IMG/VR virus record: IMGVR_UViG_3300027749_000557
Span: 1 to 20,186 of that record
Strand: one strand, 5' to 3'
Source of the DNA: a virus
DNA length: 20,186 nt
A program made the translations under genes and the position numbers. The notes beneath the pieces are model-generated. The model was not told where the DNA came from. It did no database searches and saw only the letters and a list, made by a program, of their open reading frames with translations. Positions 1 through 17,509 of the stretch are shown here, in pieces. How positions within the stretch are numbered: position 1 is the first letter of the stretch; every line of letters starts with the position of its first letter.

Positions 1-171
1 CACAAACTATTGCGACGGATTGAGCGACTTATCTTGCGCCCTATATTATATAGCGAGACTTTCGCACTTGACATTGGGGTGTCTATGGTGTATAGTTATC
101 CTTGTAAGTCAGAGAAGCAGCAATTAAATATGGCAGATATTCTGCTATATAATATAGTGAAAGGTAAGTGA
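1..171 (+). CDS. 3' end of a small unknown protein (cut by window start)
   Basis: Frame 1 is open from the first base to a TGA at 169-171, giving the last 56 residues of a protein whose start lies outside the window. The stop is one base before the ATG of the next gene, the spacing seen throughout this block. No family is recognised. The tail ends in Lys-Gly-Lys. The frame also contains a good promoter (68-96) and two copies of the 13-bp palindrome (41-53 and 145-157), which it reads as Ile-Leu-Tyr and Leu-Tyr-Asn-Ile. An internal ATG at 88 could instead start a 28-residue peptide. The reading is supported only by openness and spacing, so it may be a chance frame over a control region. Confidence 0.45.
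   Translation, partial: HKLLRRIERLILRPILYSETFALDIGVSMVYSYPCKSEKQQLNMADILLYNIVKGK
41..53 (-). repeat. 13-bp palindrome copy 1 (CTATATTATATAG, reverse orientation)
   Basis: Two 6-bp arms (CTATAT/ATATAG) surround one central base, here T on the plus strand. This is the exact reverse complement of the form at 145, 899, 1519, 2760 and 5006. It lies inside the open frame 1-171, upstream of the promoter at 68-96. Confidence 0.75.
68..96 (+). promoter_or_regulatory. sigma70-type promoter, TTGACA-N17-TATAGT
   Basis: A consensus -35 TTGACA (68-73) is followed by 17 bp and a TATAGT -10 (91-96). It points at the genes starting at 173. It shares a longer layout with the site at 1463-1491: ACTTGACA, ten bases, then TATGGTGTA. 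A copy of the 13-bp palindrome lies about 49 bp downstream, in what would be the 5' leader. Confidence 0.6.
145..157 (+). repeat. 13-bp palindrome copy 2 (CTATATAATATAG)
   Basis: Exact copy, centre base A, 15 bp before the ATG at 173 and downstream of the promoter at 68-96. The next bases (GAAAGG) form the ribosome binding site of that gene. Confidence 0.8.
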
Positions 172-172
172 A

Positions 173-319
173 ATGGACACAGCAACCCAAGCGATTCTTT
201 CTAGGCTTATCGTGAAAGCGGAAGTGTTAAAGAATCTTGAAGCAGAGGCAGCGTATGACGCTAACCTCTACGCGCTAGGTATTAAGCGCATGGCAGAGCA
301 GAGAGCGGTGTACGAATGA
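173..319 (+). CDS. small unknown early protein, 48 aa
   Basis: This short frame begins at ATG 173, with an AAAGG ribosome binding site about 8 bp upstream. It ends with TGA at 317-319, which overlaps the next ATG as ATGA. The product is helical in appearance, rich in Ala, Leu, Glu and Arg, with no Cys and no membrane segment. No family is recognised. Its coupling to the genes on both sides and its good ribosome site make it a likely real gene. It is the first complete gene downstream of the promoter at 68-96. Small proteins of this kind are common in early blocks of actinophages, where many act on host enzymes, but no such role can be read from this sequence. Confidence 0.65.
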   Translation: MDTATQAILSRLIVKAEVLKNLEAEAAYDANLYALGIKRMAEQRAVYE

Positions 320-558
320 TAATTACTATCACGTTCCCATTTCTTAAGAGGTGGAAGGATTCTCGTAAGATTAAACTTACTAGAACCCAAGCGCAGATAA
401 TTACTGCTATGCTGGAAAATCACCGCAAAGATTTATCCAATGAGCCATATGAGCAGAAGGAAGTGGCTAAAATGGAAGATGTATTAGATGCTCAACTATT
501 TGGACAAGTTCGCCGTAATGGTGAGTGGGTAAAATCTAGTAATTGGAAGGTATCATAA
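316..558 (+). CDS. small basic unknown protein, 80 aa
   Basis: The start ATG (316-318) overlaps the previous stop, so translation is probably coupled. The N-terminus (ITITFPFLKRWKDSRKIKL) is basic and part hydrophobic. It is followed by a helical stretch with many Gln, Glu and Lys and a Trp-containing C-terminus. No enzyme motif, Cys pair or clear membrane helix is present. The product is unknown. It ends at TAA 556-558, which overlaps the ATG of the next gene (TAATG). The gene belongs to a three-gene coupled run, 173-740, that ends just before the folded non-coding segment at 742. Confidence 0.75.
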   Translation: MIITITFPFLKRWKDSRKIKLTRTQAQIITAMLENHRKDLSNEPYEQKEVAKMEDVLDAQLFGQVRRNGEWVKSSNWKVS

Positions 559-740
559 TGCCTGACGAATTCGTAGAAGGTCAAGATTTCCCAACGCCTT
601 CTGAATTCGTAGATTTCTTGACCGATTCGGAAGTAGATGAGATACTGGCAATAGAAGAAGAATTTGGCGTAGATATATCCCTAGACGACATATTCACCGA
701 GATTGACGAAGACGATAGCAATTCAGATTGGGCTGAATAA
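558..740 (+). CDS. small acidic unknown protein, 60 aa
   Basis: I chose ATG 558 because it overlaps the previous stop (TAATG) and has GGAAGG at 545-550 about 7 bp upstream. An in-frame TTG at 543 is possible but lies before that ribosome site. The protein is very acidic: its second half is dominated by Asp and Glu, ending DEDDSNSDWAE. There are no Cys and no membrane segment. Strongly acidic small phage proteins are sometimes DNA mimics that inhibit host DNA-binding proteins; that is a possibility from analogy only. Its stop is one base before the structured segment 742-889. Confidence 0.75.
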   Translation: MPDEFVEGQDFPTPSEFVDFLTDSEVDEILAIEEEFGVDISLDDIFTEIDEDDSNSDWAE

Positions 741-741
741 T

Positions 742-889
742 CTATCGGGTGGCTCACGATAGGCATTTACGCGGGTGCGAGTCCTGCGGTGAGCGCTAGT
801 GTATCGGTATGCGTAGTCAATCAGCAGGGAAACCTGAAATGATGTTACGAAGGTCGCCACTTGCCATACCATAGTGGATACCGATACAC
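742..889 (+). ncRNA. candidate structured non-coding RNA
   Basis: About 150 bases between two genes fold strongly on paper. The first domain has CTATCG (742-747) pairing with CGATAG (757-762). Its loop base-pairs GCTCA (752-756) with TGAGC (790-794), which would be an H-type pseudoknot. A 6-bp hairpin with a 7-base loop, TGCGAGT, sits between (770-788). The second domain is closed by a perfect 12-bp helix, 799-810 with 878-889. It encloses a branched arm (812-815/846-849, 820-823/840-843, then CAGG-GAAA-CCTG at 825-836, a GNRA tetraloop) and a second hairpin (857-861/873-877) stacked directly on the closing helix. The 770-788 hairpin resembles a tRNA T-arm, but no full tRNA can be drawn. No known RNA class is recognised. 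Strand is assumed from the neighbouring genes. Confidence 0.5.
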
Positions 890-898
890 CCAAAGTTA

Positions 899-911
899 CT
901 ATATAATATAG
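899..911 (+). repeat. 13-bp palindrome copy 3 (CTATATAATATAG)
   Basis: Exact copy in the intergenic gap between the folded segment 742-889 and the ATG at 936. The palindrome extends outward by two further paired bases (TA/TA), then a T-G and a G-C pair, reaching 895-915. Confidence 0.8.
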
Positions 912-935
912 TAGCACTATCGAAAGGAATAAATC

Positions 936-1091
936 ATGAACCTAATCAACCTAGATGTGAGCGAGTATGGTATCAACCTAACTTCTTACTTTGGTGACGT
1001 ATATGTGGCATGGCGTACAATTATCCTAATTATCGGTATTGTCATGGTATTGCGTGTGGCTAAGTATATTCGCAAGCAGGTAAAGTCATGA
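936..1091 (+). CDS. small single-pass membrane protein, 51 aa
   Basis: ATG 936 follows a GAAAGGA ribosome site at 921-927. The first 24 residues are polar. A membrane helix follows at about residues 25-42 (AWRTIILIIGIVMVLRVA), and the C-terminus is basic (KYIRKQVKS), the charge pattern of a cytoplasmic tail. No family is recognised. The stop overlaps the next ATG (ATGA at 1088-1091), so it is coupled to the two genes that follow. Position in the early block suggests a host-membrane function such as superinfection exclusion, but this is speculation from location only. Confidence 0.75.
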   Translation: MNLINLDVSEYGINLTSYFGDVYVAWRTIILIIGIVMVLRVAKYIRKQVKS

Positions 1092-1297
1092 AAGATATGT
1101 ACGATTGTGCCACCTATGAGGAAATAGACTTCGAGTGGGAACAGGGCAAAAAGCGATTCAAAGAGTTGCTAAATAACATGAGAGACCGCCAATTAGACGG
1201 AGATTTTCGTATGGGCTATTCGGGCTTACGCGAAATGATTGATGCCCTAGAACTCAACGAGTTCATCATCAACAATACCGAAAATAGAGGTGCATGA
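1088..1297 (+). CDS. small unknown protein, 69 aa
   Basis: The start ATG overlaps the stop of the membrane-protein gene. The product is charged and helical in composition, with Glu-Trp-Glu and Lys-Lys-Arg-Phe clusters near residues 17-24 and an Asn-rich end. It has a single Cys (residue 7) and no membrane helix. No family or motif is recognised. It is the middle gene of the coupled trio 936-1488 and its stop overlaps the following ATG at 1294. Confidence 0.7.
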   Translation: MKDMYDCATYEEIDFEWEQGKKRFKELLNNMRDRQLDGDFRMGYSGLREMIDALELNEFIINNTENRGA

Positions 1298-1488
1298 TAA
1301 TGGTATCCGCCGACACAAACTTATTGCTCGACCTCACCCCGCGTGAAGTAGAGATAATTCGTATGGCTTTGCGCCTACAAGAGGAGAACCATAAACGCAA
1401 TGGATTTAGTATCCTTGTGATAGAAACCTCAGTTTTACGCAGTAAAATTAATGATTCTGTACTTGACAATGCCCGACATATGGTGTAA
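1294..1488 (+). CDS. small unknown protein, 64 aa
   Basis: The ORF starts at ATG 1294 (ATGA overlap with the previous stop); a second in-frame ATG at 1300 is equally possible. The region TPREVEIIRMALRLQEEN (about residues 15-32) is a likely amphipathic helix. The phrase LTPREVEIIRMAL resembles the first helix of regulator-type helix-turn-helix domains, but the protein is too short to carry the whole domain and I do not call it. A TTGACA box (1463-1468) lies inside its end and belongs to the promoter for the next gene block. Confidence 0.65.
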   Translation: MIMVSADTNLLLDLTPREVEIIRMALRLQEENHKRNGFSILVIETSVLRSKINDSVLDNARHMV

Positions 1489-1491
1489 GGT
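1463..1491 (+). promoter_or_regulatory. candidate promoter, same layout as 68-96
   Basis: TTGACA (1463-1468) is followed by 17 bp and a weak -10, TAAGGT. On its own the -10 is poor, but the block ACTTGACA, ten bases, TATGGTGTA matches the promoter at 68-96 with identical spacing. It is placed to drive the amidoligase and amidotransferase genes. A 13-bp palindrome follows at 1519. Confidence 0.45.
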
Positions 1492-1518
1492 TCTACCTAT
1501 AACTGAATAACCAACCCG

Positions 1519-1531
1519 CTATATAATATAG
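1519..1531 (+). repeat. 13-bp palindrome copy 4 (CTATATAATATAG)
   Basis: Exact copy in the 64-bp gap before the amidoligase-like gene, 21 bp upstream of its ATG. The pairing extends by one G-C pair on each side (1518-1532). Confidence 0.8.
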
Positions 1532-1552
1532 CAACTAACGAAAGGCAAGGAT

Positions 1553-2767
1553 ATGGACGAAGACGAAGTAATGCTCTCCTGTAGTAATTGTACTTCTGAG
1601 GTGAGCACGGAAGACGCAATCTATGACAGTAATTTGAGTGATACGCTTTACTGTAATGATTGCTATAGAATCTGCGAAAAGTGTGATGATATCGGTTGCA
1701 CCGATGAATTGTGGAATTTCGTAGATGACAGCGAATACTGGTGCGAAAGTTGCGCAGAACGTTGGGCTTCATGGTGTGATTACTGTGAGACATACAACAC
1801 ATTAAATGGCATATATGTATCAGATAGAAGTGCAAACTATTGTGAAAATTGCATGGAGAATGCTACATATTGCGACGTATGTGATGAATATAATCAAGAT
1901 GGCTGCGAATGTGAGAATGATTCTAATATGATTCATGATTACTCATACCGACCTGACCCTGTATTTCACTCAACCACTAACGATGACAGACTATACTTCG
2001 GTATCGAAATCGAAGTAGAGAATGGTCGCAATGGCTATGATAACAAGATACAGGCAGCAGCCTACGCACAAGAAACCCTAGAACCAATCGAACTAGCATA
2101 TCTCAAGAGTGACGGCTCATTATCCGATGGCTTTGAGATAGTTACCCACCCTATGACACATGACTTCTATCAAAATCAAGCAACCGAACTATGGGATACG
2201 CTTGAGCGCCTACGTACGGGATACAATATGAAATCGTGGTCTACTTCTACGTGTGGATTACATATTCATATCTCACGCACAGGGTTCAAAGGTGGTGCGC
2301 ACATGCACCGATTCCTCAACCTTGTCTACAATAATGAAGAGTTCTACAGCCTCATGGCTGGGCGTTCTTCTGATAGGTGGGCTAAGTTTGATGATGTAGA
2401 TATGAGTGAGGTGAGAGAGAGAGAAGATGGCTCATACTATCGCACACCTACGTATCGCTCCTTCAAGCAGAAGATAAATGATGGGCGACATACAGACAGA
2501 TATTCTGCCGTCAATACGCAGAACCTACACACCTTAGAGATGAGAATCTTCAAAGGTACACTCAAGTCATCAAGGGTCAAGGCTCTGATATCCTTAGCGC
2601 ATGCCAGCGTTGAGTATACCCGTACCCTTACTGTCCAAGATGTAGTAGCAGGTGCGCTTAACAGCGAGAGCCTCATGACATACATAGATGAGAACGCGTC
2701 TATGTACCCTGACCTAGTTGCATTGCTCAATGTGCTAGTAACCGAACGTAACCTAGTTACTATATAA
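1553..2767 (+). CDS. amidoligase-like protein with Cys-rich zinc-binding N-terminus
   Basis: 404 aa. ATG 1553 follows GAAAGGCAAGGAT. The C-terminal two thirds match the COOH-NH2 ligase (amidoligase, glutamate-cysteine-ligase-like) fold. Signs are FGIEIEVE at residues 149-156, the KSDGSL and GFEIVTHP block near 185-200 and CGLHIHIS at 234-241. Such enzymes activate a carboxylate with ATP and join it to an amine. The first 120 residues carry eight Cys pairs (10/13, 34/37, 41/44, 64/67, 75/78, 97/100, 107/110, 118/120), probably several treble-clef or LIM-like zinc modules for binding a partner or substrate. The next gene encodes a class II glutamine amidotransferase that also has a Cys-rich tail, so the two probably act together. 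The substrate is unknown: cell wall peptides and proteins are both possible. The stop codon lies inside a 13-bp palindrome. Confidence 0.8.
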   Translation: MDEDEVMLSCSNCTSEVSTEDAIYDSNLSDTLYCNDCYRICEKCDDIGCTDELWNFVDDSEYWCESCAERWASWCDYCETYNTLNGIYVSDRSANYCENCMENATYCDVCDEYNQDGCECENDSNMIHDYSYRPDPVFHSTTNDDRLYFGIEIEVENGRNGYDNKIQAAAYAQETLEPIELAYLKSDGSLSDGFEIVTHPMTHDFYQNQATELWDTLERLRTGYNMKSWSTSTCGLHIHISRTGFKGGAHMHRFLNLVYNNEEFYSLMAGRSSDRWAKFDDVDMSEVREREDGSYYRTPTYRSFKQKINDGRHTDRYSAVNTQNLHTLEMRIFKGTLKSSRVKALISLAHASVEYTRTLTVQDVVAGALNSESLMTYIDENASMYPDLVALLNVLVTERNLVTI

Positions 2768-2772
2768 TATAG
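2760..2772 (+). repeat. 13-bp palindrome copy 5 (CTATATAATATAG)
   Basis: Exact copy that includes the TAA stop of the amidoligase gene (2765-2767) and ends 16 bp before the amidotransferase ATG. Two more paired bases (TA/TA) extend it. Confidence 0.8.
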
Positions 2773-2788
2773 TAGAGATGAGAATATA

Positions 2789-3667
2789 ATGTGTTTATTA
2801 GTTGTCTGCTCGCCAGACTCAACGCCTAAGAAGAAAGACTTAGAGTGCGCTTCATGTAACAACCCGCATGGCTTTGGCTACGCAGTCATTACGCCTAAGG
2901 GTATTGTTACTGGTCGCTCAATGTCAGCCAAGAAACTAATCAAGGAATTCCTTGCAGTACGTAAAGAATTCCCTGCTAGTTACGCTATGTTTCATGCTCG
3001 CTATGCTACGCATGGTGTCAAGAATGAGGAGAACTGTCACCCATTCAAAGTACCTAGCAACCCTGATACCTACCTTGCACACAACGGTATCTTAGATATC
3101 AAGATTAGTGCAGGAGATAGACGTAGCGATACGCGTATCTTTGCAGAAGATACCTTGCCATCTATGGGTGGTGTGGTTGCACTAGACGATGACCACGTAT
3201 GGACTATGGTCAGCAAGTGGGCTATGGGTAGCAAGATTGCTATTCTCACGCTTGACCCTGCTGCTAAAGACCAGTGCTATATTGTCAATGAAGACGCAGG
3301 GCATTGGGATAATGACGGCATGTGGTGGTCTAATCACACCTATTGTGCTACCACCTATGCCTCTACATCATACTCAGCAGCGACAAGCAATAGCAATACA
3401 TGGTCATCATTCATTGACTATGAGAAGGATACCAAGAAGCCCGTAGATGGGCATGAGGTATACGAATGTCCAACCTGTCAAGCAGTAGCCTATGAGGATG
3501 CCAATCCTTACTATTGCGAGATGTGTTATACATGCTGGGATTGCGATGGGGTATATGGAGACTCATGTCTATGCTATACACCCGAAGCACAAAGATACGA
3601 TTATGCCAAGAAGAGTTCACAAGGAAAGGGCTGGTACTATGATAAGTACTTCGATTTCGGGAAATAG
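2789..3667 (+). CDS. class II glutamine amidotransferase with Cys-rich C-terminus
   Basis: 292 aa. Removing Met exposes Cys2, the Ntn-hydrolase nucleophile. Other hallmarks are HGFGYA (27-32), HARYATHG (69-76, with the Arg that holds glutamine), the CHPF segment (83-86) and LAHNG (96-100, oxyanion Asn-Gly). The enzyme class releases ammonia from glutamine for a partner synthetase or transferase domain, but no such domain is fused here. After about residue 195 comes a Ser/Thr/Tyr-rich linker, then five CxxC-type pairs in the last 70 residues (for example CPTC and CEMCYTCWDC), likely zinc modules resembling those of the upstream amidoligase-like protein. The natural inference is that ammonia or glutamine chemistry is delivered to that partner. 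The 3' end overlaps the next gene by 29 bp. Confidence 0.85.
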   Translation: MCLLVVCSPDSTPKKKDLECASCNNPHGFGYAVITPKGIVTGRSMSAKKLIKEFLAVRKEFPASYAMFHARYATHGVKNEENCHPFKVPSNPDTYLAHNGILDIKISAGDRRSDTRIFAEDTLPSMGGVVALDDDHVWTMVSKWAMGSKIAILTLDPAAKDQCYIVNEDAGHWDNDGMWWSNHTYCATTYASTSYSAATSNSNTWSSFIDYEKDTKKPVDGHEVYECPTCQAVAYEDANPYYCEMCYTCWDCDGVYGDSCLCYTPEAQRYDYAKKSSQGKGWYYDKYFDFGK

Positions 3668-3803
3668 AAATACCAAAGAGGAACTACGTGAAGTCTTGAT
3701 TGACTACATATGCGACCTTGCTATATTATATAGTAACCGCGATGAAGAAACGTACAACAAGAAGGTTGCACGTGTACGCTTACTACTACAGGAGGTTGGG
3801 TAA
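3639..3803 (+). CDS. small unknown protein, 54 aa
   Basis: I chose ATG 3639 because AAGGAAAGGG at 3621-3630 is an excellent ribosome site 8 bp upstream. A longer frame from 3492 is only a shadow of the amidotransferase. The protein is helical and charged (KEELREVLIDYICDLAILYS, about residues 13-32, then a Lys/Arg-rich helix). No family is recognised. The gene contains a reversed copy of the 13-bp palindrome at 3721-3733, read as Ala-Ile-Leu-Tyr-Ser. It overlaps the gene before it by 29 bp and the next by one base (TAATG). Confidence 0.7.
   Translation: MISTSISGNRNTKEELREVLIDYICDLAILYSNRDEETYNKKVARVRLLLQEVG
3721..3733 (-). repeat. 13-bp palindrome copy 6 (CTATATTATATAG, reverse orientation)
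   Basis: Exact copy in reverse orientation, wholly inside the coding frame 3639-3803 and about 70 bp before the next gene start. Confidence 0.75.
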
Positions 3804-3991
3804 TGTCCAACACAAACGATTTATGGTACGGCGGGTCGCCCATTGAAGGATGGGGTACAGTAGGAATCTATGATGGAGGCATTACCGTTTACGGTGGCTT
3901 CGAGACTAAAGAGGAAGCAGAAGCATGGCTCTCTCAACTAAAAGCAGGTGCAGTAATTCCAATCTACAAAAAAGCATATACGAGAGGATAA
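3803..3991 (+). CDS. small unknown protein, 62 aa
   Basis: The start overlaps the previous stop (TAATG) and follows AGGAGG at 3790-3795, a strong ribosome site. The N-terminus is rich in Gly and aromatic residues with a beta-strand look (IEGWGTVGIYDGGITVYGGF). A short helical segment follows (TKEEAEAWLSQLKAG), resembling the strand-helix pattern of small phage proteins that carry an SPOR-like or YCII-like half domain. That likeness is too weak to call. No Cys, no membrane helix. Coupled to its upstream neighbour; the next start lies one base after the stop. Confidence 0.75.
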   Translation: MSNTNDLWYGGSPIEGWGTVGIYDGGITVYGGFETKEEAEAWLSQLKAGAVIPIYKKAYTRG

Positions 3992-3992
3992 T

Positions 3993-4253
3993 ATGAACGG
4001 CTCAGATGAAGTAACAATGGCAGAGATGAAAGATACTTACTCTGTAATTAAATATGACAGGGCAGAAAGTTCTTGGGTTAAGCACATTACTATGGTCAAT
4101 AAGGGTAGCGGTACGGTTTACACAGGTAGACTATACTGGGACTCTCATGACGGATATGACACAGCATGGGATGATGCTATCCCACCACAGGGCATGCGCC
4201 CTGAGTTTGAATATATACTAGACTCAATGACGGAGGACATGAAGAATGAGTAG
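3993..4253 (+). CDS. unknown protein, 86 aa
   Basis: ATG 3993 has GAGAGGA at 3982-3988 upstream. The first half reads as alternating beta strands (TYSVIKYDRAESSWVKHITM and a second strand after a KGSGT turn). The end is acidic with Met and Glu (MTEDMKNE). Asp and Tyr are frequent; there are no Cys. No family is recognised. Its final codons overlap the next gene by 8 bp, so translation is probably coupled. Confidence 0.75.
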   Translation: MNGSDEVTMAEMKDTYSVIKYDRAESSWVKHITMVNKGSGTVYTGRLYWDSHDGYDTAWDDAIPPQGMRPEFEYILDSMTEDMKNE

Positions 4254-4497
4254 ACCAATACCATCAGATGATGCAGCACAGTACGAGGTAGAAGTAACGG
4301 TTAAGTTCTGCTTTACAATTGAGGCAGACGATGACATGCAGGCAGAAGAAATTGCTTCCTATGATTGGGAAGACTACAAGTTCCTCAGCGAGATTCAGGA
4401 GATTCGCGTAGATATGATAGAAGGAGACGAAGAAGAATATGACTTCGGTGTTCCCGATGTTGGTGATGCTACTGATGCTGGGATTGCTGGTGAGTAA
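4246..4497 (+). CDS. acidic unknown protein, 83 aa
   Basis: ATG 4246 has GGAGG at 4232-4236 upstream and overlaps the preceding gene. After a short polar N-terminus the product forms a predicted strand (YEVEVTVKFCFTIEADDDMQAEEIA), then a long acidic tail. The pattern, a strand followed by an Asp/Glu-rich helix with AEEIA, recalls small single-domain phage proteins of unknown function. Net charge is strongly negative, as in the protein at 558-740. No family is recognised. Confidence 0.75.
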   Translation: MSRPIPSDDAAQYEVEVTVKFCFTIEADDDMQAEEIASYDWEDYKFLSEIQEIRVDMIEGDEEEYDFGVPDVGDATDAGIAGE

Positions 4498-4630
4498 GTA
4501 TGTAGTAATCTGCCAAGTAGATGAGTGCGAAGCAGATAACGAAGACTATGAAGATGACGGTGCAACGTATTGGTTTACGTGTAGCACATGCGGTTATGAT
4601 AACGAAGTTGTACACTCGGGCTGGAAATAG
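4490..4630 (+). CDS. small zinc-ribbon-like protein, 46 aa
   Basis: The proposed start is GTG 4490, which overlaps the previous stop (GTGAGTAA). A longer in-frame ATG at 4439 would add a hydrophobic stretch that is a shadow of the preceding acidic gene, so I did not use it. No strong ribosome site is visible, so coupling by overlap is assumed. The product has two Cys groups, CQVDEC near the start and CSTCG later, separated by an acidic loop: a likely zinc ribbon. The C-terminus reads EVVHSGWK. Function unknown; several other zinc-binding mini-proteins lie in this block. Confidence 0.55.
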   Translation: MSKYVVICQVDECEADNEDYEDDGATYWFTCSTCGYDNEVVHSGWK

Positions 4631-4643
4631 AGAAAGGCGACGA

Positions 4644-4712
4644 ATGTGGACTCTAATATCTTACACATTATTCTATATGATTATATATTTGGTTATGACA
4701 CATGATAGGTAA
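4644..4712 (+). CDS. 22-residue hydrophobic membrane peptide
   Basis: ATG 4644 follows AGAAAGGCGACGA, a good ribosome site. The peptide is almost wholly a membrane helix rich in Tyr, Ile and Leu (about residues 2-18) ending THDR. Its stop overlaps the WhiB start region (4702-4712), so it is translated just ahead of WhiB. This is too short to assign by family. Tiny membrane peptides can modulate host membrane enzymes or holins, but nothing in the sequence points to a specific role. Confidence 0.45.
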   Translation: MWTLISYTLFYMIIYLVMTHDR

Positions 4713-5013
4713 TTGTAGTAAGTACGACCCTGATTTATGGTTTCAAGAGATGCCAGTCGGGTTTGCTTCACAGCGTAAGATGCAGGAATTGTCAAACAAT
4801 ATCAAGATGGCAATTAAGATATGCGATACATGTCCAATCAAAGCACAATGCTTAAAAGATGGCATGAAAGAAGAGAACATCTCATATGGTATATGGGGTG
4901 GACTCATGGCTGGAGAGAGACTTATGTCTACTGGCAAATCTAAAGATGACTATACTAGAAACACAGAAGAATGGAAAGCCTTTCATTTACTGGAGCGTTT
5001 AGTCACTATATAA
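4702..5013 (+). CDS. whiB: WhiB-family Fe-S transcription regulator
   Basis: 103 aa with the WhiB signature. Four Cys are at residues 5, 41, 44 and 50 in the usual C, CxxC, x5, C pattern, which bind a 4Fe-4S cluster. GIWGG follows at 63-67, the turn that contacts the host sigma factor region 4. The basic C-terminal tail after the turn (GERLMSTGKSKDDYTRN) is short compared with host WhiB proteins. The family is confined to actinobacteria and their phages, which fixes the host group. Phage WhiB proteins can alter host transcription and cell division or superinfection. The stop codon lies inside a 13-bp palindrome (5006-5018), giving the same Val-Thr-Ile end as the amidoligase-like protein. Confidence 0.93.
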   Translation: MIGNCSKYDPDLWFQEMPVGFASQRKMQELSNNIKMAIKICDTCPIKAQCLKDGMKEENISYGIWGGLMAGERLMSTGKSKDDYTRNTEEWKAFHLLERLVTI

Positions 5014-5018
5014 TATAG
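5006..5018 (+). repeat. 13-bp palindrome copy 7 (CTATATAATATAG)
   Basis: Exact copy containing the TAA stop of the WhiB gene (5011-5013). It ends 13 bp before ATG 5032, and the AAGGTGG ribosome site follows at once. Confidence 0.8.
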
Positions 5019-5031
5019 TAAGGTGGTAAAC

Positions 5032-5412
5032 ATGAAAAGATTTATCTTATTGCTTATTGCTATCTTTGCACTTACTGGCATCTTCAACGTACACCATACA
5101 AGAGATACACCAGTACGCACATGGACTACAGCAGATAGCAAGGCTTATGCGAAAGATAAGTTACTGGCATGGGAAGAGAATCAGTATCGTTGCCTTGATA
5201 AGTTGTGGAGCAAAGAATCCAATTGGAGACCTGATGCATACAACAAACACAAGGTAATGGGACGTAATGCTGGCGGTATTCCACAATTACTCGGTATGTC
5301 TACCAAGACAATGCCGACAGAACAGATTGATAGAGGCATAGCGTACATTATCTACAGATATTCTACGCCATGTGCAGCACTTAAATTCCACAAGAGAAAG
5401 GGATGGTACTAA
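5032..5412 (+). CDS. exported lysozyme/transglycosylase-like protein
   Basis: 126 aa. ATG 5032 is preferred because AAGGTGG (5020-5026) is correctly spaced; an in-frame GTG at 5023 lies inside that site. Residues 1-18 are a signal peptide or anchor (MKRFILLLIAIFALTGIF). The domain reads WSKESNWRPDAYN (59-71), in which E62 is the likely catalytic acid. GGIPQLLGMS follows, and the C-terminus is AALKFHKRKGWY. This matches the SLT/lysozyme-like fold of small actinobacterial and phage muralytic proteins, including the usual Trp-Tyr end. It would cut glycan strands outside the membrane. The lysis genes are far away at 12742-13630, so this enzyme in the early block more likely edits the wall during infection or blocks superinfection (inference). 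Confidence 0.75.
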   Translation: MKRFILLLIAIFALTGIFNVHHTRDTPVRTWTTADSKAYAKDKLLAWEENQYRCLDKLWSKESNWRPDAYNKHKVMGRNAGGIPQLLGMSTKTMPTEQIDRGIAYIIYRYSTPCAALKFHKRKGWY

Positions 5413-5630
5413 TGAGACAGTTCAGCGAAACAGCCTACAAAGAGCCACCTCGAGTTGACAAAATAAAGACCACTCTGCTATACTACGGGTATAACAGATT
5501 AGAGGCTAGGAAGTTGGCGTATGAAATCATCAGAAACCTAGATAACTATATAGCAATACAGGAACGTACTCGCGCACAATATAATATAGTGCGTCCAACA
5601 CAAACTCGAGTGCAGATTCGGGAGACGTAA
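5412..5630 (+). CDS. unknown protein, 72 aa
   Basis: ATG 5412 overlaps the previous stop (TAATG). GAGAAAGGG at 5393-5401 provides the ribosome site; an ATG at 5403 would sit only one base after it. The product is helical with Arg, Tyr and Leu (TTLLYYGYNRLEARKLAYEI, about residues 21-40), resembling a small DNA-binding or scaffold helix pair. No family is recognised. The gene contains a good promoter (5455-5484) and the imperfect 13-bp palindrome at 5577-5589. The stop overlaps the next ATG. Confidence 0.7.
   Translation: MRQFSETAYKEPPRVDKIKTTLLYYGYNRLEARKLAYEIIRNLDNYIAIQERTRAQYNIVRPTQTRVQIRET
5455..5484 (+). promoter_or_regulatory. internal sigma70-type promoter, TTGACA-N18-TATACT
   Basis: The -35 is consensus (5455-5460), the -10 is TATACT (5479-5484) and the spacer is 18 bp. 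It lies inside the gene 5412-5630 and could transcribe the FmdB-like gene and the nuclease. It is supported only by the match. Confidence 0.4.
5577..5589 (+). repeat. 13-bp palindrome copy 8, one mismatch (CAATATAATATAG)
   Basis: Twelve of 13 bases match. The flanks extend the symmetry by GCA/TGC, so the arms pair over 5574-5592 apart from the mismatch. It lies inside the gene 5412-5630. Confidence 0.65.
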
Positions 5631-5806
5631 TGCCAAACTATGAATACAGATGTGATGACTGTGACACGCAAGAAGAACATTGGCGTGACATAGAAGAACG
5701 GGACGAATGTCCAACCTGTCAACATTGTTTACGAATCATGCGTAGGATTATATTGCCTACAGCAGTGAAGTTCAATGGCTCAGGATTCTACTCAACTGGA
5801 GGCTAA
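5630..5806 (+). CDS. FmdB-like zinc ribbon protein, 58 aa
   Basis: The start overlaps the previous stop (TAATG), with GGGAGACGT upstream. The sequence MPNYEYRCDDC begins with the FmdB signature: Tyr-Glu-Tyr-x-Cys-xx-Cys, then CPTC (27-30) 16 residues later. This is the CxxC...CxxC zinc ribbon of the FmdB/CxxC_CxxC_SSSS family, and the C-terminal FNGSGFYSTGG is also typical. The family occurs in many bacteria and phages, often as a small regulator or adaptor, and its biochemical role is unclear. An extra Cys-Gln-His-Cys after the second pair adds a possible ligand. One base separates it from the next gene's ATG at 5807, in the same operon. Confidence 0.85.
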   Translation: MPNYEYRCDDCDTQEEHWRDIEERDECPTCQHCLRIMRRIILPTAVKFNGSGFYSTGG

Positions 5807-5938
5807 ATGGAATACTCAGAAGAAGAACAGAAGTACCGAGATAAGTTAATTAAAGAAATTGAAGAAATGCGTTTCAAAGTAGTCGAAAATCCAATTAAAC
5901 TACCCGAGTTAAAGGTGATACAAGGTGAAAGACAGTAA
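5807..5938 (+). CDS. small charged protein, 43 aa
   Basis: ATG 5807 follows the previous stop directly (TAAATGG). The reading frame uses AACTGGAGG just upstream as ribosome site. The first 20 residues are a very charged helix (Glu and Lys), followed by Val, Pro and Leu and an end of IQGERQ. Composition suggests a short coiled-coil or linker protein, and no family is recognised. It overlaps the nuclease gene by 14 bp. Confidence 0.6.
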   Translation: MEYSEEEQKYRDKLIKEIEEMRFKVVENPIKLPELKVIQGERQ

Positions 5939-6368
5939 TTGGGATATAGACCTTCGTGCAGGATTGACAGGGGAGAGCAGGGTCGCAGACCTGCTTTCTC
6001 TTGATACTGTCGAAGTAAAAACAGATAGACGATGGCATGAAACTGGTAACTTATTTATTGAGACTTCATGCTACTACAAGGCTACAGACAGTTGGCAAGT
6101 ATCAGGTATGGTTGTCAGCAAAGCAACGCATTGGGCTTTCCTCATGGAGGATACGCTACTTATTATTCCTTTGGATTATCTGCGAGCAGCAGTATACAAA
6201 CATGGGAAATCAATCACTTGCAACATTCCACCTAATCCATCAAGAGGTTATCTAATCACCCCAGCAACCTTACTAGAGTTCGTAAGGCTTGCTAGGTTAG
6301 AGGCGATAGCAGCACACGATGCTTATGAATCGTGGTCTGACCCAGCAGAGTGGGTCGACCCAGTATAA
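5925..6368 (+). CDS. PD-(D/E)XK nuclease-fold protein
   Basis: 147 aa. GTG 5925 has AAAGGTG (5911-5917) upstream. The fold signature is visible: Glu17 in the first helix, Val-Glu-Val-Lys at residues 29-32 (the E-x-K core on a strand) and TGNLFIE at 40-46. This is the layout of small phage nucleases that cut or trim DNA, including branched-DNA endonucleases. The acidic residue expected just before VEVK is Asp27. The C-terminus is acidic with Trp and Pro. Substrate is unknown. It ends inside the oppositely oriented sigma-like gene (46-bp overlap), so no terminator lies between the two convergent units. Confidence 0.65.
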   Translation: MKDSNWDIDLRAGLTGESRVADLLSLDTVEVKTDRRWHETGNLFIETSCYYKATDSWQVSGMVVSKATHWAFLMEDTLLIIPLDYLRAAVYKHGKSITCNIPPNPSRGYLITPATLLEFVRLARLEAIAAHDAYESWSDPAEWVDPV

Positions 6369-7000
6369 TCATCTTCTTTAGGAGTTGAATCAACATCATT
6401 GAATGGTCTAAAGCCACCAATACGTGTAATCAATTTCTTGATAGCGCGGTTGTGACGCATACGAGCAGCGTCTTCACTGCCAATATTCATCTCATTGGCA
6501 ATACCCGCGTAGTCCAGGGACTCTGCATACTTGTAGAAAAGTACCGTTTTATCTTCTGTACTTAACTTACCGTATGCATTGTTAACCTCAGCCATCATCG
6601 CCATCAGGTTTCCACCTTCTGATGGTGCTGGTGGCTTTCCTGGCATACCGAGATTAAGTTTAGGCATATCAGTAGTTTCATTACGAATGATTGCAGGAAG
6701 CAACGCTTCAACTACTTCAACATCATAGTAGAACAAGTCGGATACTTCGTATCCCATTGACTTAGCCTTCCACCTTTGACAATAATCTAGTGCTTGATTT
6801 CTAAGTGAACGATAAATTAAGTTCTTTGCATCCTTCTTGCCAATTGATTCCCAATCATCCAGTTTATTTGGATGCTCTAAGAACCACTGGTAAAGTGATT
6901 GCTTAATATCTTCCAACTCAACCATGCCATACTTCCTATGGTATTCTGCTGCCACAGATACGACAACGTAATCCCAGGGTTCTATACGTTCCCAGCCCAT
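6323..7000 (-). CDS. RNA polymerase sigma factor-like protein
   Basis: 225 aa. ATG 7000 is chosen because it overlaps the previous stop (TAATG); a GTG six bases upstream is possible. Residues 27-50 (VELEDIKQSLYQWFLEHP and following) look like sigma region 2 helices. Residues 146-193 form a region 4-like helix-turn-helix, beginning LSTEDKTVLFYKYAESLDYA and containing GIANEMNIGSEDAARMRHNRA. Between them is a Pro/Gly-rich linker. This is the two-domain architecture of actinophage sigma-like factors, which recruit host RNA polymerase to phage promoters. It is the last gene of the replication operon, fitting a role in switching on later genes. The acidic tail overlaps the convergent nuclease gene. 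Confidence 0.75.
   Translation of the reverse strand: MGWERIEPWDYVVVSVAAEYHRKYGMVELEDIKQSLYQWFLEHPNKLDDWESIGKKDAKNLIYRSLRNQALDYCQRWKAKSMGYEVSDLFYYDVEVVEALLPAIIRNETTDMPKLNLGMPGKPPAPSEGGNLMAMMAEVNNAYGKLSTEDKTVLFYKYAESLDYAGIANEMNIGSEDAARMRHNRAIKKLITRIGGFRPFNDVDSTPKEDDYTGSTHSAGSDHDS
6339..6362. repeat. nested inverted repeats GACCCA / TGGGTC
   Basis: GACCCA (6339-6344), six bases, TGGGTC (6351-6356), then GACCCA again (6357-6362), so two alternative hairpins or one perfect 12-bp palindrome can form. It sits inside the overlap of two convergent genes. The half-site matches the GACCC/GGGTC operators near 11585-12137. No T-run follows, so a terminator is not supported. Confidence 0.4.
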
Positions 7001-7740
7001 TACCACTTCCAGGTTTTACCTTCTACGGTGAATGAATTGTTGATGATTGGTACGATTTGTGGTACAACTGTGTTGCCGTCAACGTGGAGGATACCGAAGC
7101 CTTGCTGCCATGTGAATAGACCAGCCTTGATATACTTAGCGTTCTTGTAGTCCATGAGGTTGCCTAGTTCCAAGCCCCATACGGTTCTAGGCTTACCGCC
7201 ACGATAGGTCTGTGTGTGGTGTGTAAGCCCCATACGGTGCGTGTGACCACAGGCTACGGACATTCCGCTACGCTTGGCTAGACCAAGGGCTGTAGCCCCT
7301 GCTGTGGGCTGTACGTTGCCTTCATCGCCGTGCATAAGTAGCCATCCTGGGGCTAGTTCATACGGGTCAGCGTGGTACTCAATCTCTAGTTCTTTGAGAC
7401 CGAGGAAGTTCTCAAGTTGCAACTCTGGTAGCCCAAGTAATCCTGGGGCTCTCATCGCAACGGTATTAAACAATCTGTCTGTGTGGTTACTTCGTACCAT
7501 ATGCTCGATAGTTAAATCGTATAGCACTTGACGTGTCATATCCCTATCACGACCAATGGTGCGTTCGTACTCTAGTTCTGTACCCTTGCTCCACTTGCTA
7601 ATGGTCTGCATATCCATCTCATCCCCGCAAGATACGACTGTATCTGGCTGGTATGCCTTAATGAACTTGGCTATAGCATTTACTGCTTGCACGTCATGAT
7701 AGGGCACTTGAAGGTCTGAAATGATTACGATTTTTTTCAT
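7000..7740 (-). CDS. calcineurin-like metallophosphoesterase
   Basis: 246 aa. ATG 7740 follows GAGGGAAGAAAAAGTAAC. The metal-binding motifs run in order: SDLQVPYHD (8-16), SCGDEMD near 37-43, SNHTDR near 84-89, LMHGDEG near 132-138 and CGHTHRMG near 164-171. They place two metals for cleaving phosphodiesters or phosphomonoesters. The usual D-x-H at the first site reads D-L-Q here, with a His four residues later. Enzymes of this group are frequent in actinophage replication blocks and may act on DNA ends or nucleotides; the substrate cannot be read. It sits between the HNH-like gene and the sigma gene, with a TAATG overlap with the latter. Confidence 0.85.
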   Translation of the reverse strand: MKKIVIISDLQVPYHDVQAVNAIAKFIKAYQPDTVVSCGDEMDMQTISKWSKGTELEYERTIGRDRDMTRQVLYDLTIEHMVRSNHTDRLFNTVAMRAPGLLGLPELQLENFLGLKELEIEYHADPYELAPGWLLMHGDEGNVQPTAGATALGLAKRSGMSVACGHTHRMGLTHHTQTYRGGKPRTVWGLELGNLMDYKNAKYIKAGLFTWQQGFGILHVDGNTVVPQIVPIINNSFTVEGKTWKW

Positions 7741-7741
7741 G

Positions 7742-8357: not shown

Positions 8358-8694
8358 TCTTGTCCTTCCCTAGTAGGTCTTTAATCTCTCCATCAATATC
8401 AAGCATGTGTTCTGCTATCACCATATCTTCTATAATAGCCTTCATAGCCCCTGGGTCTGTCTCTGCTGCGTATAAGGTAGCGTAGGTAGACTGGGTAATC
8501 TCTTCAATCTGTTTAGGATTGTCAGCGTAGCCATACAGGCAACGAAGTAATGACCCAACCAGAAGTGTATAACCGTTAGGCAAGATTAACCTAGGGTCAA
8601 ACTCTGATTCATTCTCCTCAAGGAGATGGTCAGTAGCCTCAAATATATTATCAAACCTCTCCCCACATATGGGGCATGGTGGAATCTTATTCAT
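8341..8694 (-). CDS. small zinc-finger protein, 117 aa
   Basis: The N-terminus is a C2H2-like finger: CPICG (residues 7-11), then Phe-Asp, and His at about 28 in EATDHLLEE. The remainder is helical and acidic, with no second finger and no enzyme motif. Small proteins of this form occur in actinophage replication blocks and are thought to bind nucleic acids or the primase, but no specific partner is shown. It overlaps the primase TOPRIM frame by 8 bp, so translation is coupled. Confidence 0.7.
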   Translation of the reverse strand: MNKIPPCPICGERFDNIFEATDHLLEENESEFDPRLILPNGYTLLVGSLLRCLYGYADNPKQIEEITQSTYATLYAAETDPGAMKAIIEDMVIAEHMLDIDGEIKDLLGKDKNGNND

Positions 8695-9364
8695 TAGAAG
8701 TTAATCCCATTCTTTCTTTAATGTAGTCAGCACCGTGCTTGACGTAAACAGAATTGACATCTTCCCCGTCTGGCATGGAGACGATAGTAACTGGAAGTTC
8801 TCTGGCAAGACCGCTTGCAAATTCTTTTCCAGGTTGGTCGCCATCAGCAAATACAAATATTCTTTCAAAGTCTGCGAGTAATCGTGTGTAGTGTTTCTTC
8901 CATGAATTCGCACCTGGAACTCCAACGCAAGGGATACCGACGCATCCACTGAGTGTAATGGTATCAAGTTCACCTTCGCATACTCCAATCCAATCACCCG
9001 CCCTTTCTATATCAGTTACGTTATACATCTTTGTTTCAACGCCAATCATTCCCATGTACTTCGGTTCCACCGCTGGATTAAGAGAGCGAAAACGTAGGTC
9101 AACAACACCAGTTTTAGTAATGTACGGAATAGAGAGCCTACCGACAAACGCTTCATGCCCAGGTTCCGCATCAACGACGACGCCGTATCGAGCCACTCGC
9201 GCTACTTCCCGCGTTATTCCCCGACTTGCTAGGTAATCTTCCGCCTGATAAATGTTTCCCGCGTACTTGAGCGCTGCTCTGCCCAGTAATTCCTTCTGCG
9301 ATAGACTTTGCTTCACGTATGTCACACCCTTCTTGCTTTGCAATAATTTGTAAACTGTTGCCAC
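8687..9364 (-). CDS. primase C-terminal part: TOPRIM domain
   Basis: The frame encodes the catalytic TOPRIM half of a DnaG-like primase. GVCEGELD (127-134) supplies the conserved Glu, and FADGDQPGKEF (172-182) supplies the DxD pair. The Gly-rich GVPGANSW at 148-155 is the typical linker loop. Homology to phage primases starts around residue 31 (ALKYAG). The first 30 residues are a different-frame reading of the zinc domain gene upstream. The only candidate start before that is a GTG at 9364 with no ribosome site. The zinc-domain frame upstream stays open to 9171, so a +1 frameshift near 9275-9300 probably makes one primase. An assembly error is the alternative. Confidence 0.8.
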   Translation of the reverse strand: MATVYKLLQSKKGVTYVKQSLSQKELLGRAALKYAGNIYQAEDYLASRGITREVARVARYGVVVDAEPGHEAFVGRLSIPYITKTGVVDLRFRSLNPAVEPKYMGMIGVETKMYNVTDIERAGDWIGVCEGELDTITLSGCVGIPCVGVPGANSWKKHYTRLLADFERIFVFADGDQPGKEFASGLARELPVTIVSMPDGEDVNSVYVKHGADYIKERMGLTSNE

Positions 9365-9539
9365 TCATACCACATGCGAAGCAATTAAAGATGTTATCTC
9401 TTGTATTAAAACTTGCACTTGCATGCGAGTCATTATGGAATGGACACTTGACATTTACCTGACCGCTTGTGCGGTTTGTGTTGGCTCCGTAGTGTTGAAG
9501 TACGGATACAATATCAGGTAGGTCATCCACCAAAGACAT
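9171..9539 (-). CDS. primase N-terminal part: CHC2 zinc domain
   Basis: 122 aa in this frame. Residues 31-60 are the CHC2 zinc finger, with Cys32, His35, Cys53 and Cys56 as ligands (KCPFH ... FNCFACG). The following QEGCDIREAKSIAEG (69-83) is also typical of primases. After about residue 86 the frame turns to Ser/Gly/Arg-rich, low-complexity sequence. That tail is the out-of-frame reading of the TOPRIM gene. The start ATG 9539 overlaps the nuclease gene by 17 bp and has GAGG about 7 bp upstream. Together with 8687-9364 this forms one primase in two frames. Confidence 0.8.
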   Translation of the reverse strand: MSLVDDLPDIVSVLQHYGANTNRTSGQVNVKCPFHNDSHASASFNTRDNIFNCFACGMSGNSLQIIAKQEGCDIREAKSIAEGITGQSSAQVRGKHLSGGRLPSKSGNNAGSSASGSIRRRR

Positions 9540-10670: not shown

Positions 10671-10726
10671 TTGTCTCCCTTTCCTAGTTGTTTCAAATTT
10701 TATTTAGAACGGAAATTGCTGGTCTA

Positions 10727-11122
10727 TTAGTTTACTGGCTTGCACTGGTCCGCGCCCTGAGGCATCGGACAGACCCACATTGCGTAAGGATTTCCCGTCT
10801 TGGACGAGACCCCCGCCTTGTACTTCCGTGCTCCGTGTACGCATGTCGGACCAGACCCTGGTGCTGCCGTAGTAGGCGCTGTCACTGCCTGGGTTGGAGG
10901 CGAGGTTGGCGCTGGCATTGTGCTTGCTGTGAAATCTGGCGTCGATAAAGGGGCGACCACACTTGCACCAGTTACCAACTTCTGCACTGCTGCAATCTGC
11001 GTTGAGTAATCCCCAATACCTTCAAGCAACACGCTTAGTTCATCTGCGCTGTTGGCGCGGACGTTAATCATTGCATCCCCAGGAATCTTATAGGATACTT
11101 GTAGTTTCCATTCGTCGGACAT
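10727..11122 (-). CDS. unknown protein with C-terminal zinc ribbon, 131 aa
   Basis: ATG 11122 has AAGGAGATATA upstream. Residues 1-52 form a compact alpha/beta domain (WKLQVSYKIPGDAMINVRAN). They are followed by a Pro/Thr/Ala-rich linker (about 53-92) and a tail, with CVHGARKYKAGVSSKTG and later Cys-Pro and Cys-Lys-Pro, that looks like a zinc ribbon. Proteins of this shape lie next to Cas4-like nucleases in actinophages and may bind single-stranded DNA; that role is not proven. The linker is rich in G+C compared with the rest of the window. Confidence 0.65.
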   Translation of the reverse strand: MSDEWKLQVSYKIPGDAMINVRANSADELSVLLEGIGDYSTQIAAVQKLVTGASVVAPLSTPDFTASTMPAPTSPPTQAVTAPTTAAPGSGPTCVHGARKYKAGVSSKTGNPYAMWVCPMPQGADQCKPVN

Positions 11123-11740
11123 TTATATCTCCTTTTTAGTACTGAACTGGCAATGGGCTGTGAGACCACAGCGATACTGACAGTTGTTAGTGTTAGGTAA
11201 GAATACACCAGCCTTACGTGCGGTGTCAAATTGTTTCACCAAGTACTCCATCTTGTCGGTAGAATACTGACGTAAATCAATCATCTCGACGGTATTAGAA
11301 CCGCGAGACATGTAGTAGTTGCCCCAGTTGACTTCGACCCCGAAAATCTGCTCTATGCCCATCTTGTAGAAGCCTAGTTGTAGGCTACTGGTGGGTGTCT
11401 GCTGGCTTGTTTTAAGGTCTACGATGACCAGTTGACCGTCAACTTCAAACACACGGTCAATAAACATCTTGATAGGAACACCAGCCACGATAGGGGTAAG
11501 CCCTAGTTCGATAGCAGGGTTGCCGTCTGGTGCTGTCCAGATTTTCCAGTTAGGGTTAGCCTTGCGCCAACTGATATAGTTCTCGACCCACTTGGGTCCA
11601 GTAGTATGCCAGAAGGTTTCGTCTTCCTTATTTGGATTTGCTTTAGTGGCTCTGCCACCGACTCTTGCTCCAGTTAGGTCAATGTCTCCTTTAGACACAT
11701 TCCATGATTCTGTCCATAGATTCTGAACATCGTTTATCAT
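11123..11740 (-). CDS. Cas4/RecB-like nuclease, C-terminal part
   Basis: 205 aa. This half holds the catalytic core: Asp in FIDRVFEV (about 94-101), then IVDLKTSQQ (106-114) with the D-x-K motif, and a Gln-containing helix after it. The C-terminus CQYRCGLTAHC has three Cys that normally bind a 4Fe-4S cluster, with the fourth in the partner. It starts at ATG 11740, overlapping the stop of the N-terminal half (ATGA), with AAGGAG six bases upstream. The family (PD-(D/E)XK, RecB/Cas4-like) processes DNA ends during recombination. One complete nuclease would need both halves. Confidence 0.8.
   Translation of the reverse strand: MINDVQNLWTESWNVSKGDIDLTGARVGGRATKANPNKEDETFWHTTGPKWVENYISWRKANPNWKIWTAPDGNPAIELGLTPIVAGVPIKMFIDRVFEVDGQLVIVDLKTSQQTPTSSLQLGFYKMGIEQIFGVEVNWGNYYMSRGSNTVEMIDLRQYSTDKMEYLVKQFDTARKAGVFLPNTNNCQYRCGLTAHCQFSTKKEI
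11585..11598. promoter_or_regulatory. operator-like palindrome GACCC-N4-GGGTC (A)
   Basis: GACCC (11585-11589), four bases, GGGTC (11594-11598); the arms extend inward by A/T to six pairs. It lies inside the nuclease gene, about 360 bp from the copy in the leftward promoter. Confidence 0.4.
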
Positions 11741-11928
11741 AGGTTCTCCTTGTCATAGGTTTCGCATGCAAGGTGGAAGGCTGAGCCTCCAACGGACCAC
11801 ACTGAGGGTTCCTCCTGCTTGTTGAGGAGTCTTCCTAGGTAGTATTGATATCCGCAGTCGACGTAAGTCGTAAATGCGGAATAGGATATATGTTCTGGTA
11901 GTATATATTCTTCTAATTGTATTGACAT
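11737..11928 (-). CDS. Cas4/RecB-like nuclease, N-terminal part
   Basis: 63 aa. Residues 14-23 (ISYSAFTTYV) and Cys25 begin the RecB-type fold, with Cys25 a likely cluster ligand. WSVGGSAFHLACE (44-56) is motif I with its His. The frame ends at TGA 11737-11739, exactly where the second half begins, with a strong ribosome site for it. A leaderless start fits: the -10 (11935-11940) ends 6 bases before ATG 11928, and no ribosome site is visible. It is the first gene of the operon running to 6323. Confidence 0.75.
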   Translation of the reverse strand: MSIQLEEYILPEHISYSAFTTYVDCGYQYYLGRLLNKQEEPSVWSVGGSAFHLACETYDKENL

Positions 11929-11934
11929 ATTCTG

Positions 11935-11963
11935 AGTATACAGACCCGATAGGGTCTTGTCAA
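11935..11963 (-). promoter_or_regulatory. leftward promoter of the replication operon, TTGACA-N17-TATACT
   Basis: On the minus strand the -35 TTGACA (11963-11958), a 17-bp spacer and TATACT (11940-11935) form a near-perfect promoter. Transcription would start at or next to ATG 11928, so the first mRNA would be leaderless. The spacer is a palindrome (see 11942-11957). Confidence 0.75.
11942..11957. promoter_or_regulatory. operator-like palindrome AGACCC-GATA-GGGTCT (B)
   Basis: Six-base arms around GATA fill the spacer of the leftward promoter almost exactly, a position where a bound protein would block RNA polymerase. Core geometry GACCC-N4-GGGTC is the same as at 11585-11598. Confidence 0.55.
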
Positions 11964-11976
11964 CTAATAGTAAAAC

Positions 11977-12005
11977 TTGACAGAACCTAATTGGGTGTGT
12001 AAACT
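11977..12005 (+). promoter_or_regulatory. rightward promoter, TTGACA-N17-TAAACT
   Basis: Consensus -35 (11977-11982), 17-bp spacer and a moderate -10 (12000-12005). It points towards the HNH gene at 12088. Its -35 lies 13 bp from the -35 of the leftward promoter, so the two are back to back. Confidence 0.5.
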
Positions 12006-12025
12006 TACATATTGTAAGAACAAAT

Positions 12026-12043
12026 AAAGGCTTTCAGCCTTTT
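12026..12043 (+). terminator. hairpin with short T-run in the HNH leader
   Basis: AAAGGCT (12026-12032), loop TTC and AGCCTTT (12036-12042) form 7 base pairs, running into TTTT then AT-rich DNA. It sits between the rightward promoter and the HNH gene, so it may act as an attenuator. The three-base loop and short T-run make it weak. Confidence 0.4.
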
Positions 12044-12054
12044 ATATAATATAT
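12042..12054 (+). repeat. palindrome core copy 9 (TATATAATATA) in AT-rich segment
   Basis: The 11-bp core at 12043-12053 is exact, with the flanking C/G replaced by T/T. The surrounding 12041-12075 is almost pure A+T (a possible DNA-unwinding site). It precedes the rightward HNH gene, consistent with the other copies. Confidence 0.5.
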
Positions 12055-12498: not shown

Positions 12499-12500
12499 CT

Positions 12501-17505: not shown

Positions 17506-17509
17506 TTAA

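Follow-up and report, generated by a model that had tools for sequence, protein, structure and literature searches.

Dispersed palindromes in the early genes of freshwater actinophages are likely type-switching operators of a phage-encoded candidate repressor

What is the role of a 13-bp palindrome that recurs in front of early genes in a fragment of phage DNA? The window analysed here (20,186 nucleotides, the whole of the stretch examined from IMG/VR record IMGVR_UViG_3300027749_000557) is a fragment of a freshwater actinophage related to phages of 'Ca. Planktophila', and a megablast search of it against cultured phages gave no match. The initial annotation described seven exact copies of the palindrome, one copy with a single mismatch and one 11-bp core, confined to rightward gene regions, and proposed that they are either operators of a dimeric regulator or promoters for a phage sigma-like factor. 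We find that the palindromes are most likely docking sites for a previously undescribed phage-encoded DNA-binding switch protein that controls the early genes, and that closely related lake-water phages each use their own version of protein and palindrome.

The observation itself holds, apart from its weakest site. Seven exact copies of CTATATNATATAG (+) were recovered, those at 41 and 3721 with T and the others with A in the centre, together with one copy at 5577 carrying one mismatch (CAATATAATATAG), all of them in the rightward early block. The observed counts at 0, 1, 2 and 3 mismatches are 7, 1, 1 and 13, whereas first-order simulations give 0.0, 0.13, 1.55 and 13.2 and the Markov expectation for exact copies is 0.003, so that the exact copies and the site at 5577 are far beyond chance. 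The proposed 11-bp core at 12043 is a two-mismatch site at the chance level in an AT-rich gap and is not supported. No exact or one-mismatch copy lies in the leftward regions. Sites lie 13-24 bp before five ATG codons, and the two that had been said to supply a stop codon do so, both genes ending in ...LVTI*. As also described initially, no -35 element accompanies the sites as -10 elements. A consensus promoter was instead identified between the first two sites. No tRNA was found in the window that could explain the non-coding stretch 741-898. The features of the early block are collected in Table 1.

Table 1. Operators, predicted promoter and genes of the early block (coordinates in the window; operators are candidate sites, REP binding being inferred).
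Position	Strand	Feature	Basis
41..53		Operator O2, upstream site of the pair bracketing the early promoter (centre about -56)	Exact palindrome; paired layout conserved in 66/66 loci
68..96	+	Predicted main early promoter P_E: TTGACA (68-73), 17 bp, TATAGT (91-96)	Sequence; 11 of 12 consensus positions
145..157		Operator O3, downstream site of the pair (centre about +48), 15 bp before ATG 173	Exact palindrome; 104 bp from O2
173..319	+	First early ORF after P_E (48 aa)	ORF list
899..911		Operator, 24 bp before ATG 936	Exact palindrome
936..1091	+	Small early gene (F46 family, putative membrane protein)	ORF list; site-to-gene comparison with relatives
1519..1531		Operator, 21 bp before the amidoligase-like gene	Exact palindrome; junction carries a site in relatives (see text)
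1553..2767	+	Amidoligase-like early gene	Pfam Amidoligase_2, E 1.3e-8
2760..2772		Operator, supplies the stop codon of the amidoligase-like gene, 16 bp before ATG 2789	Exact palindrome
2789..3667	+	Class II glutamine amidotransferase-like early gene	Weak GATase matches below the Pfam cut-off; phrog_25883
3721..3733		Operator after the GATase-like gene, 69 bp before ATG 3803	Exact palindrome
4702..5013	+	WhiB-like gene (not the covarying regulator)	Pfam Whib, E 2.8e-12
5006..5018		Operator, supplies the stop codon of the WhiB gene, 13 bp before ATG 5032	Exact palindrome
5577..5589		One-mismatch operator, 40 bp before ATG 5630	One mismatch; the relative G001 has its own palindrome 19 bp before the same gene
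6323..7006	-	Sigma-like gene that closes the block on the right	phrog_354 sigma-K factor, E 3e-18

The initial annotation had stated in advance that random placement at similar density throughout the genome, or lack of conservation in related phages, would speak against a function, and both points were examined in relatives. In seven genomes of 38-41 kb all 62 sites lie in the block, and the junction before the amidoligase gene carries a site 9-25 bp before the ATG in 12 of 13 genomes examined, comprising nine motif types. What is conserved is the position rather than the sequence. Only 2 of 27 relative records (3 of 80 loci) carry CTATATNATATAG, although their replication genes are nearly identical, and a de novo search found a different palindrome family in most others, with 5-11 copies in the same ~6-kb block and at the same gene junctions. 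At least 13 such types were found, and the palindromes change even between phages whose terminases are >99% and amidoligases 95% identical. Mixed cases exist, as the locus L197, which has a new REP (the protein described below), keeps one operator of the other, older type.

These comparisons bear directly on the suggestion that the palindromes are -10 elements read by the phage sigma-like factor. CTATATAATATAG does contain TATAAT and a sigma-like gene ends the block, but orthologous junctions in relatives carry TTCGGTTAACCGAA, GTCGGCNNGCCGAC and others, GC-rich palindromes among them, without TATAAT, while sigma-like proteins of different-type phages reach 95% identity and the sites flank a separate consensus promoter. 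The TATAAT core is thus not conserved across relatives and is incidental to this version; the promoter reading is not supported, and we regard it as highly unlikely.

All but one of the palindrome types pair with a ~200-aa helical protein, here called REP, which is encoded first in the block; 79 REP loci pair with at least 12 types. The identity of REP predicts the palindrome type almost perfectly over 71 genomes/loci (AUC = 0.994), as compared with the best other gene (AUC = 0.913), the sigma-like gene (AUC = 0.885) and WhiB (AUC = 0.749). The sigma-like and WhiB proteins, both of which had been named beforehand as candidate binders to be tested, were rejected on this covariation. Relatives without REP (G015, G016 and the cultured phages E7 and F5) lack palindromes. 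REP is not encoded in the window itself, which is why the regulator could not be noticed from the window alone: in loci of the same type (e.g. L128:803-1456, L139, L136 and L140) its gene lies immediately left of the equivalent position, and it most likely lies just off the left end of this fragment.

REP is unknown to Pfam, PHROGs and PDB. AF2 models of REP (pLDDT about 85) are all-helical, with an HTH-like pair at residues 54-65 and 76-91 in L128. Residues of the second, predicted recognition helix change with the half-site, in the even clade H->T and Q->C/G at -2, and in the odd clade E->C, Q->A and P/A->T at -5. However, REP matches no known DNA-binding family by sequence or fold, and fold searches of two REP models gave no significant match, so that the HTH assignment rests on a prediction. 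The best target-normalised TM-score among the listed PDB matches is that of the KorB DNA-binding domain (1r71, KorB-DNA; 0.47, but E = 5.6), while no ParB/KorB appears among the listed Pfam matches of 67 members, and together these observations do not settle whether REP has a ParB/KorB-type domain. A role of the palindromes as centromere, partition or genome-organising sites for extrachromosomal maintenance, with gene regulation as a side effect, would agree with the fact that KorB also uses 13-bp palindromes with a central base (O_B oligo in PMC11790492). We consider it very unlikely, as no ParA-type ATPase was found in 19 records and the sites are placed at the promoter and at start codons.

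All 66 of 66 loci have a pair of sites 90-119 bp apart, and in 54 of them the enclosed sigma70-like promoter scores at least 9/12, against 9% of random windows. Strict helical phasing of the pair is not claimed, because the spacings spread over this whole range. The upstream site is centred at a median of -59 (range -85 to -47.5), near the class I activator position, which would also fit REP as an activator or dual regulator that recruits RNA polymerase to P_E from this site and modulates it from about +45, ordering early expression in a lytic cycle. That no integrase was found, and hence no need for a lysogeny repressor, would agree with this. It appears unlikely, as P_E is already near consensus in most types, and a site at +26 to +56 and many sites inside the transcribed block fit blocking better than activation. 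The location of many sites 9-25 bp before start codons could also suggest RNA-level elements, that is, start-associated sequences or signals for processing or translational control. This is highly unlikely, since the upstream member of the pair lies before the promoter it brackets and is not contained in that transcript, spacers of 0-2 nt are poor hairpin loops, and the sequence tracks an HTH-like protein.

The explanation we consider likely is that the palindromes are operators of REP, a probably dimeric helix-turn-helix regulator that most likely represses early transcription. In this view, REP bound at O2 and O3 can exclude or loop the promoter, further operators just before the ribosome-binding sites of the early genes would block initiation or elongation in a stoperator-like manner, and an operator upstream of the REP gene suggests autoregulation. 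REP and operators would diversify together, giving mutually exclusive specificity types as in phage immunity groups. The sites and their placement, the covariation and co-absence with REP, the promoter layout and the helix fold prediction were established by the analysis, whereas direct binding, dimerisation, repression rather than activation, looping and the superinfection-immunity role are inferences; there are no binding, footprinting or expression data, and binding and repression remain untested. The interpretation offered initially is therefore partly supported: the operators of a dimeric regulator and the stoperator analogy are, the sigma-factor promoters are not.

Classical lysogeny is unproven in these phages. 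No tyrosine integrase (PF00589, 0/23), serine integrase (PF00239, 0/19) or ParA (PF13614, 0/19) was detected, although records may be fragments and other modes of maintenance are not excluded, and neither DnaB nor the even-clade REP was found in GTDB contigs, so there is no prophage evidence from host genomes. Cognate repressor-operator specificity groups, as expected of temperate phage immunity, are nevertheless indicated by the covariation. One possible, though tentative, reading is a repressor-based superinfection-immunity system in phages that do not integrate, in which the first phage in a cell makes REP early and silences later phages of the same operator type, driving diversification into many orthogonal REP-operator pairs that are swapped as cassettes, with operators then retuned junction by junction. 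The set provides a natural dictionary of at least 12 repressor-operator pairs within otherwise very similar phages, probably of the abundant freshwater Nanopelagicales. Since intermediates such as L197 exist, it makes the long-standing question of how multi-site immunity specificity can switch directly testable, and it also offers orthogonal repressor parts and suggests repressor control in phages without recognisable lysogeny genes.

Comparison with known systems shows partial resemblances. The start-associated sequences of cluster K phages, to which the sites had also been likened, are short repeats just before start codons, but are asymmetric and near the ribosome-binding site, while the present sites are palindromic and covary with a candidate DNA-binding protein. 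KorB of plasmid RK2 (PMC11790492) is a global repressor with 13-bp palindromic sites that have a central base. MrpR (YopR) of SPbeta is a master phage regulator binding a 15-bp element, SPBRE, dispersed in intergenic/promoter regions (PMC10516654), but it has a tyrosine-recombinase fold in a temperate Bacillus phage, whereas REP is predicted to be a small all-helical protein without a match to that fold, in phages without detected recombinase. The bipartite operator of GalR (PMC4693257) brackets its promoters at -60.5 and +53.5, 113 bp apart, resembling the layout found here (medians -59 and +45.5), though the protein family is unrelated, looping is only inferred here and there are additional downstream operators. 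The repressor/stoperator immunity of cluster A mycobacteriophages (L5, Bxb1, TipsytheTRex; PMC6550527, PMC9283540) shares many dispersed sites in short intergenic spaces plus operators at the early promoter, and cognate repressor and sites that diverge together into specificity groups; the DnaB-like helicase is also distantly related (about 40% identical to actinophage homologues, most records being mycobacteriophages). However, stoperators are asymmetric, oriented and bound by a two-domain monomer with an HTH and a stoperator domain, while the present sites are perfect palindromes, with A or T as the centre base in both directions, and are confined to the early block. REP has no PDB sequence match and no significant fold match to the L5 gp71/TipsytheTRex repressor, and no match in 50,697 phage records, which include cluster A phages. 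The proposed system would thus work like cluster A stoperator immunity but with a different protein family and symmetric sites, and its types differ completely rather than by a few positions.

Seven exact copies of CTATATNATATAG and one copy with a single mismatch are present in the window, and the observation made in the initial annotation holds in this respect, as simulations give only 0.0 exact and 0.13 one-mismatch copies per window and these copies are therefore not due to chance. The additional site at 12043, which had been counted as an 11-bp core of the same family, is a two-mismatch match at the chance level. The claimed confinement of the sites to the rightward gene region holds in the window, where this block spans positions 1-6368. 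The interpretation offered with the observation, operators of a dimeric regulator or promoters for a phage sigma-like factor, is partly supported, in that the former reading agrees with the mechanism that we consider most likely.

The window is an IMG/VR fragment that encodes a WhiB-like protein, a sigma-like protein, a split primase, a DnaB-like helicase and a Cas4-like exonuclease. Its DnaB is 81% identical to that of E7 and F5, the two cultured phages of 'Ca. Planktophila' LanE-43 (PMC10202952), from which we infer that the host is probably a freshwater Nanopelagicales bacterium. The coordinates of the features discussed here, including several observed in the remainder of the window and in related loci, are collected in the table below.

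Coordinates of features in the window and in related phage loci (prefix L)
Sequence	Position	Strand	Feature
Window	41 and 145		Sites bracketing TTGACA-17-TATAGT, with centers at -56 and +48
Window	1553-3667	+	Amidoligase-like protein with a cysteine-rich N-terminus next to a class II glutamine amidotransferase (GATase)-like protein, conserved in the early block of most relatives; function unknown
Window	8687-9539	-	DNA primase split into two overlapping ORFs, an N-terminal part (9171-9539) and a TOPRIM part (8687-9364)
Window	12088-12665	+	Isolated rightward pair (HNH-like protein and a small putative membrane protein) inside the leftward block, preceded by an AT-rich gap
Window	16162-18895	-	Glycine-rich tail-fibre-like proteins with repetitive sequence
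L103	1144-1190		Intrinsic-terminator-like hairpin with T-run directly after the REP gene and its operator, making REP a separate transcription unit
L172	7828-7972		Second operator pair just before the REP gene
L175	4083-4218		Second operator pair just before the REP gene
L186	3948-4091		Second operator pair just before the REP gene
L197	5200-5240		Operator of the other type (TTCGGTTAAACGAA) retained before the amidoligase gene in a phage with GTCGGC-type REP and operators

Conservation of the palindrome in related phages had been proposed in advance as a test, and of 80 relatives found through DnaB (87-97% identical) only three carry this palindrome. A de novo search for repeated perfect palindromes showed, however, that most of the others with the block carry a different one, namely TGCCGTATnATACGGCA, GTCATATnATATGAC, GTTCGGTTAACCGAAC, TGTATGATnATCATACA, ATCCGTTTAAACGGAT, GGTCGGCnnGCCGACC, GTAAGATnATCTTAC, TGTATTAAnTTAATACA and more. 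The distribution of the sites over longer phage sequences, likewise named beforehand as a criterion, was examined in seven records of 38-41 kb, in which all 62 sites (up to one mismatch) lie between the terminase gene and the sigma-like gene, although about 0.6-1.1 kb in the middle of two of the records, G008 and G009, was not included. Two of the shorter same-type records, G007 and G026, each have one single-mismatch match outside the block. As for the anticipated placement near start codons, sites recur at the same junctions, being found 9-25 bp before the amidoligase ATG in 12 of 13 genomes and 9 types, and also near the GATase-like gene and the first early ORF.

The first gene of the block, just after the first palindrome, encodes a protein of ~200 amino acids, here referred to as REP, which occurs in two sequence families that are linked by profile comparison (A2-A3 probability 96%, A2-A4 86%, E 5e-6; A3-A4 weak). 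REP has no convincing Pfam or PHROG match, no PDB sequence match and no match in 50,697 phage records. Three scans found 79 REP loci, and pairing each with the palindrome in its own DNA gives at least 12 REP-palindrome types. Over 71 genomes/loci, REP identity separates same-type from different-type pairs with an AUC of 0.994. The loci were collected partly through REP, and same-type phages are partly related, so that the contrast with other genes matters more than the value itself; the next best gene family reaches 0.913, while the sigma-like and WhiB genes reach 0.885 and 0.749, respectively.

Two AlphaFold2 models of REP (pLDDT 84.7 and 84.9) are all-helical with an HTH-like pair of helices, the second of which holds the motif [SGAT][HQ]xx. 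The residues of this predicted recognition helix appear to follow the half-site, which is an inference from few types. In the even-center clade, His goes with T and Gln with C or G at position -2 (three types each), while in the odd-center clade Glu goes with C, Gln with A and Pro/Ala with T at position -5.

In 66 of 66 loci with a scorable pair (65 after a REP gene, plus the window), two sites 90-119 bp apart bracket a sigma70-like promoter, which in 54 of them scores at least 9 of 12 consensus positions, against 9% of random windows. The site centers have medians of -59 and +45.5 relative to the predicted start. For comparison, GalR uses sites at -60.5 and +53.5, 113 bp apart (PMC4693257). 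We also noticed that in several TTCGG-type phages (L172, L175 and L186) a second operator pair, 103-135 bp apart, lies just before the REP gene itself, consistent with autoregulation.

A close examination of two loci, L174 and L197, revealed that they are 97% identical over 3.1 kb up to the first operator and 91% identical from the third-last operator of L174 onwards, but that REP and most operators are of different types. At the GATase junction the operator differs symmetrically, whereas the amidoligase junction of L197 still carries the L174-type operator. This looks like a cassette swap caught midway, unless the metagenome contig is chimeric. REP and the palindromes are also absent together: the relatives G015 and G016 have terminase, amidoligase and GATase genes but no REP and no palindrome family, and E7 and F5 also lack both.

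While the sites, their placement and their correspondence with REP are seen in the sequences, the mechanism is inferred. Most likely a REP dimer binds the palindromes, represses the early promoter from the bracketing pair and acts as a roadblock at dispersed sites, with autoregulation. Activation, partition and RNA-level readings are retained as rival explanations. No integrase, resolvase or ParA was found in the records searched, so the immunity may act without classical lysogeny, a point that we leave undecided. In this view, the system works like cluster A stoperator immunity (PMC6550527, PMC9283540) and resembles MrpR/SPBRE (PMC10516654) in using dispersed sites, but it fails their defining features, that is, an asymmetric site, a homologous repressor and a recombinase fold. 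We regard it as dispersed-operator phage control that is new in departing from these two systems in those features.
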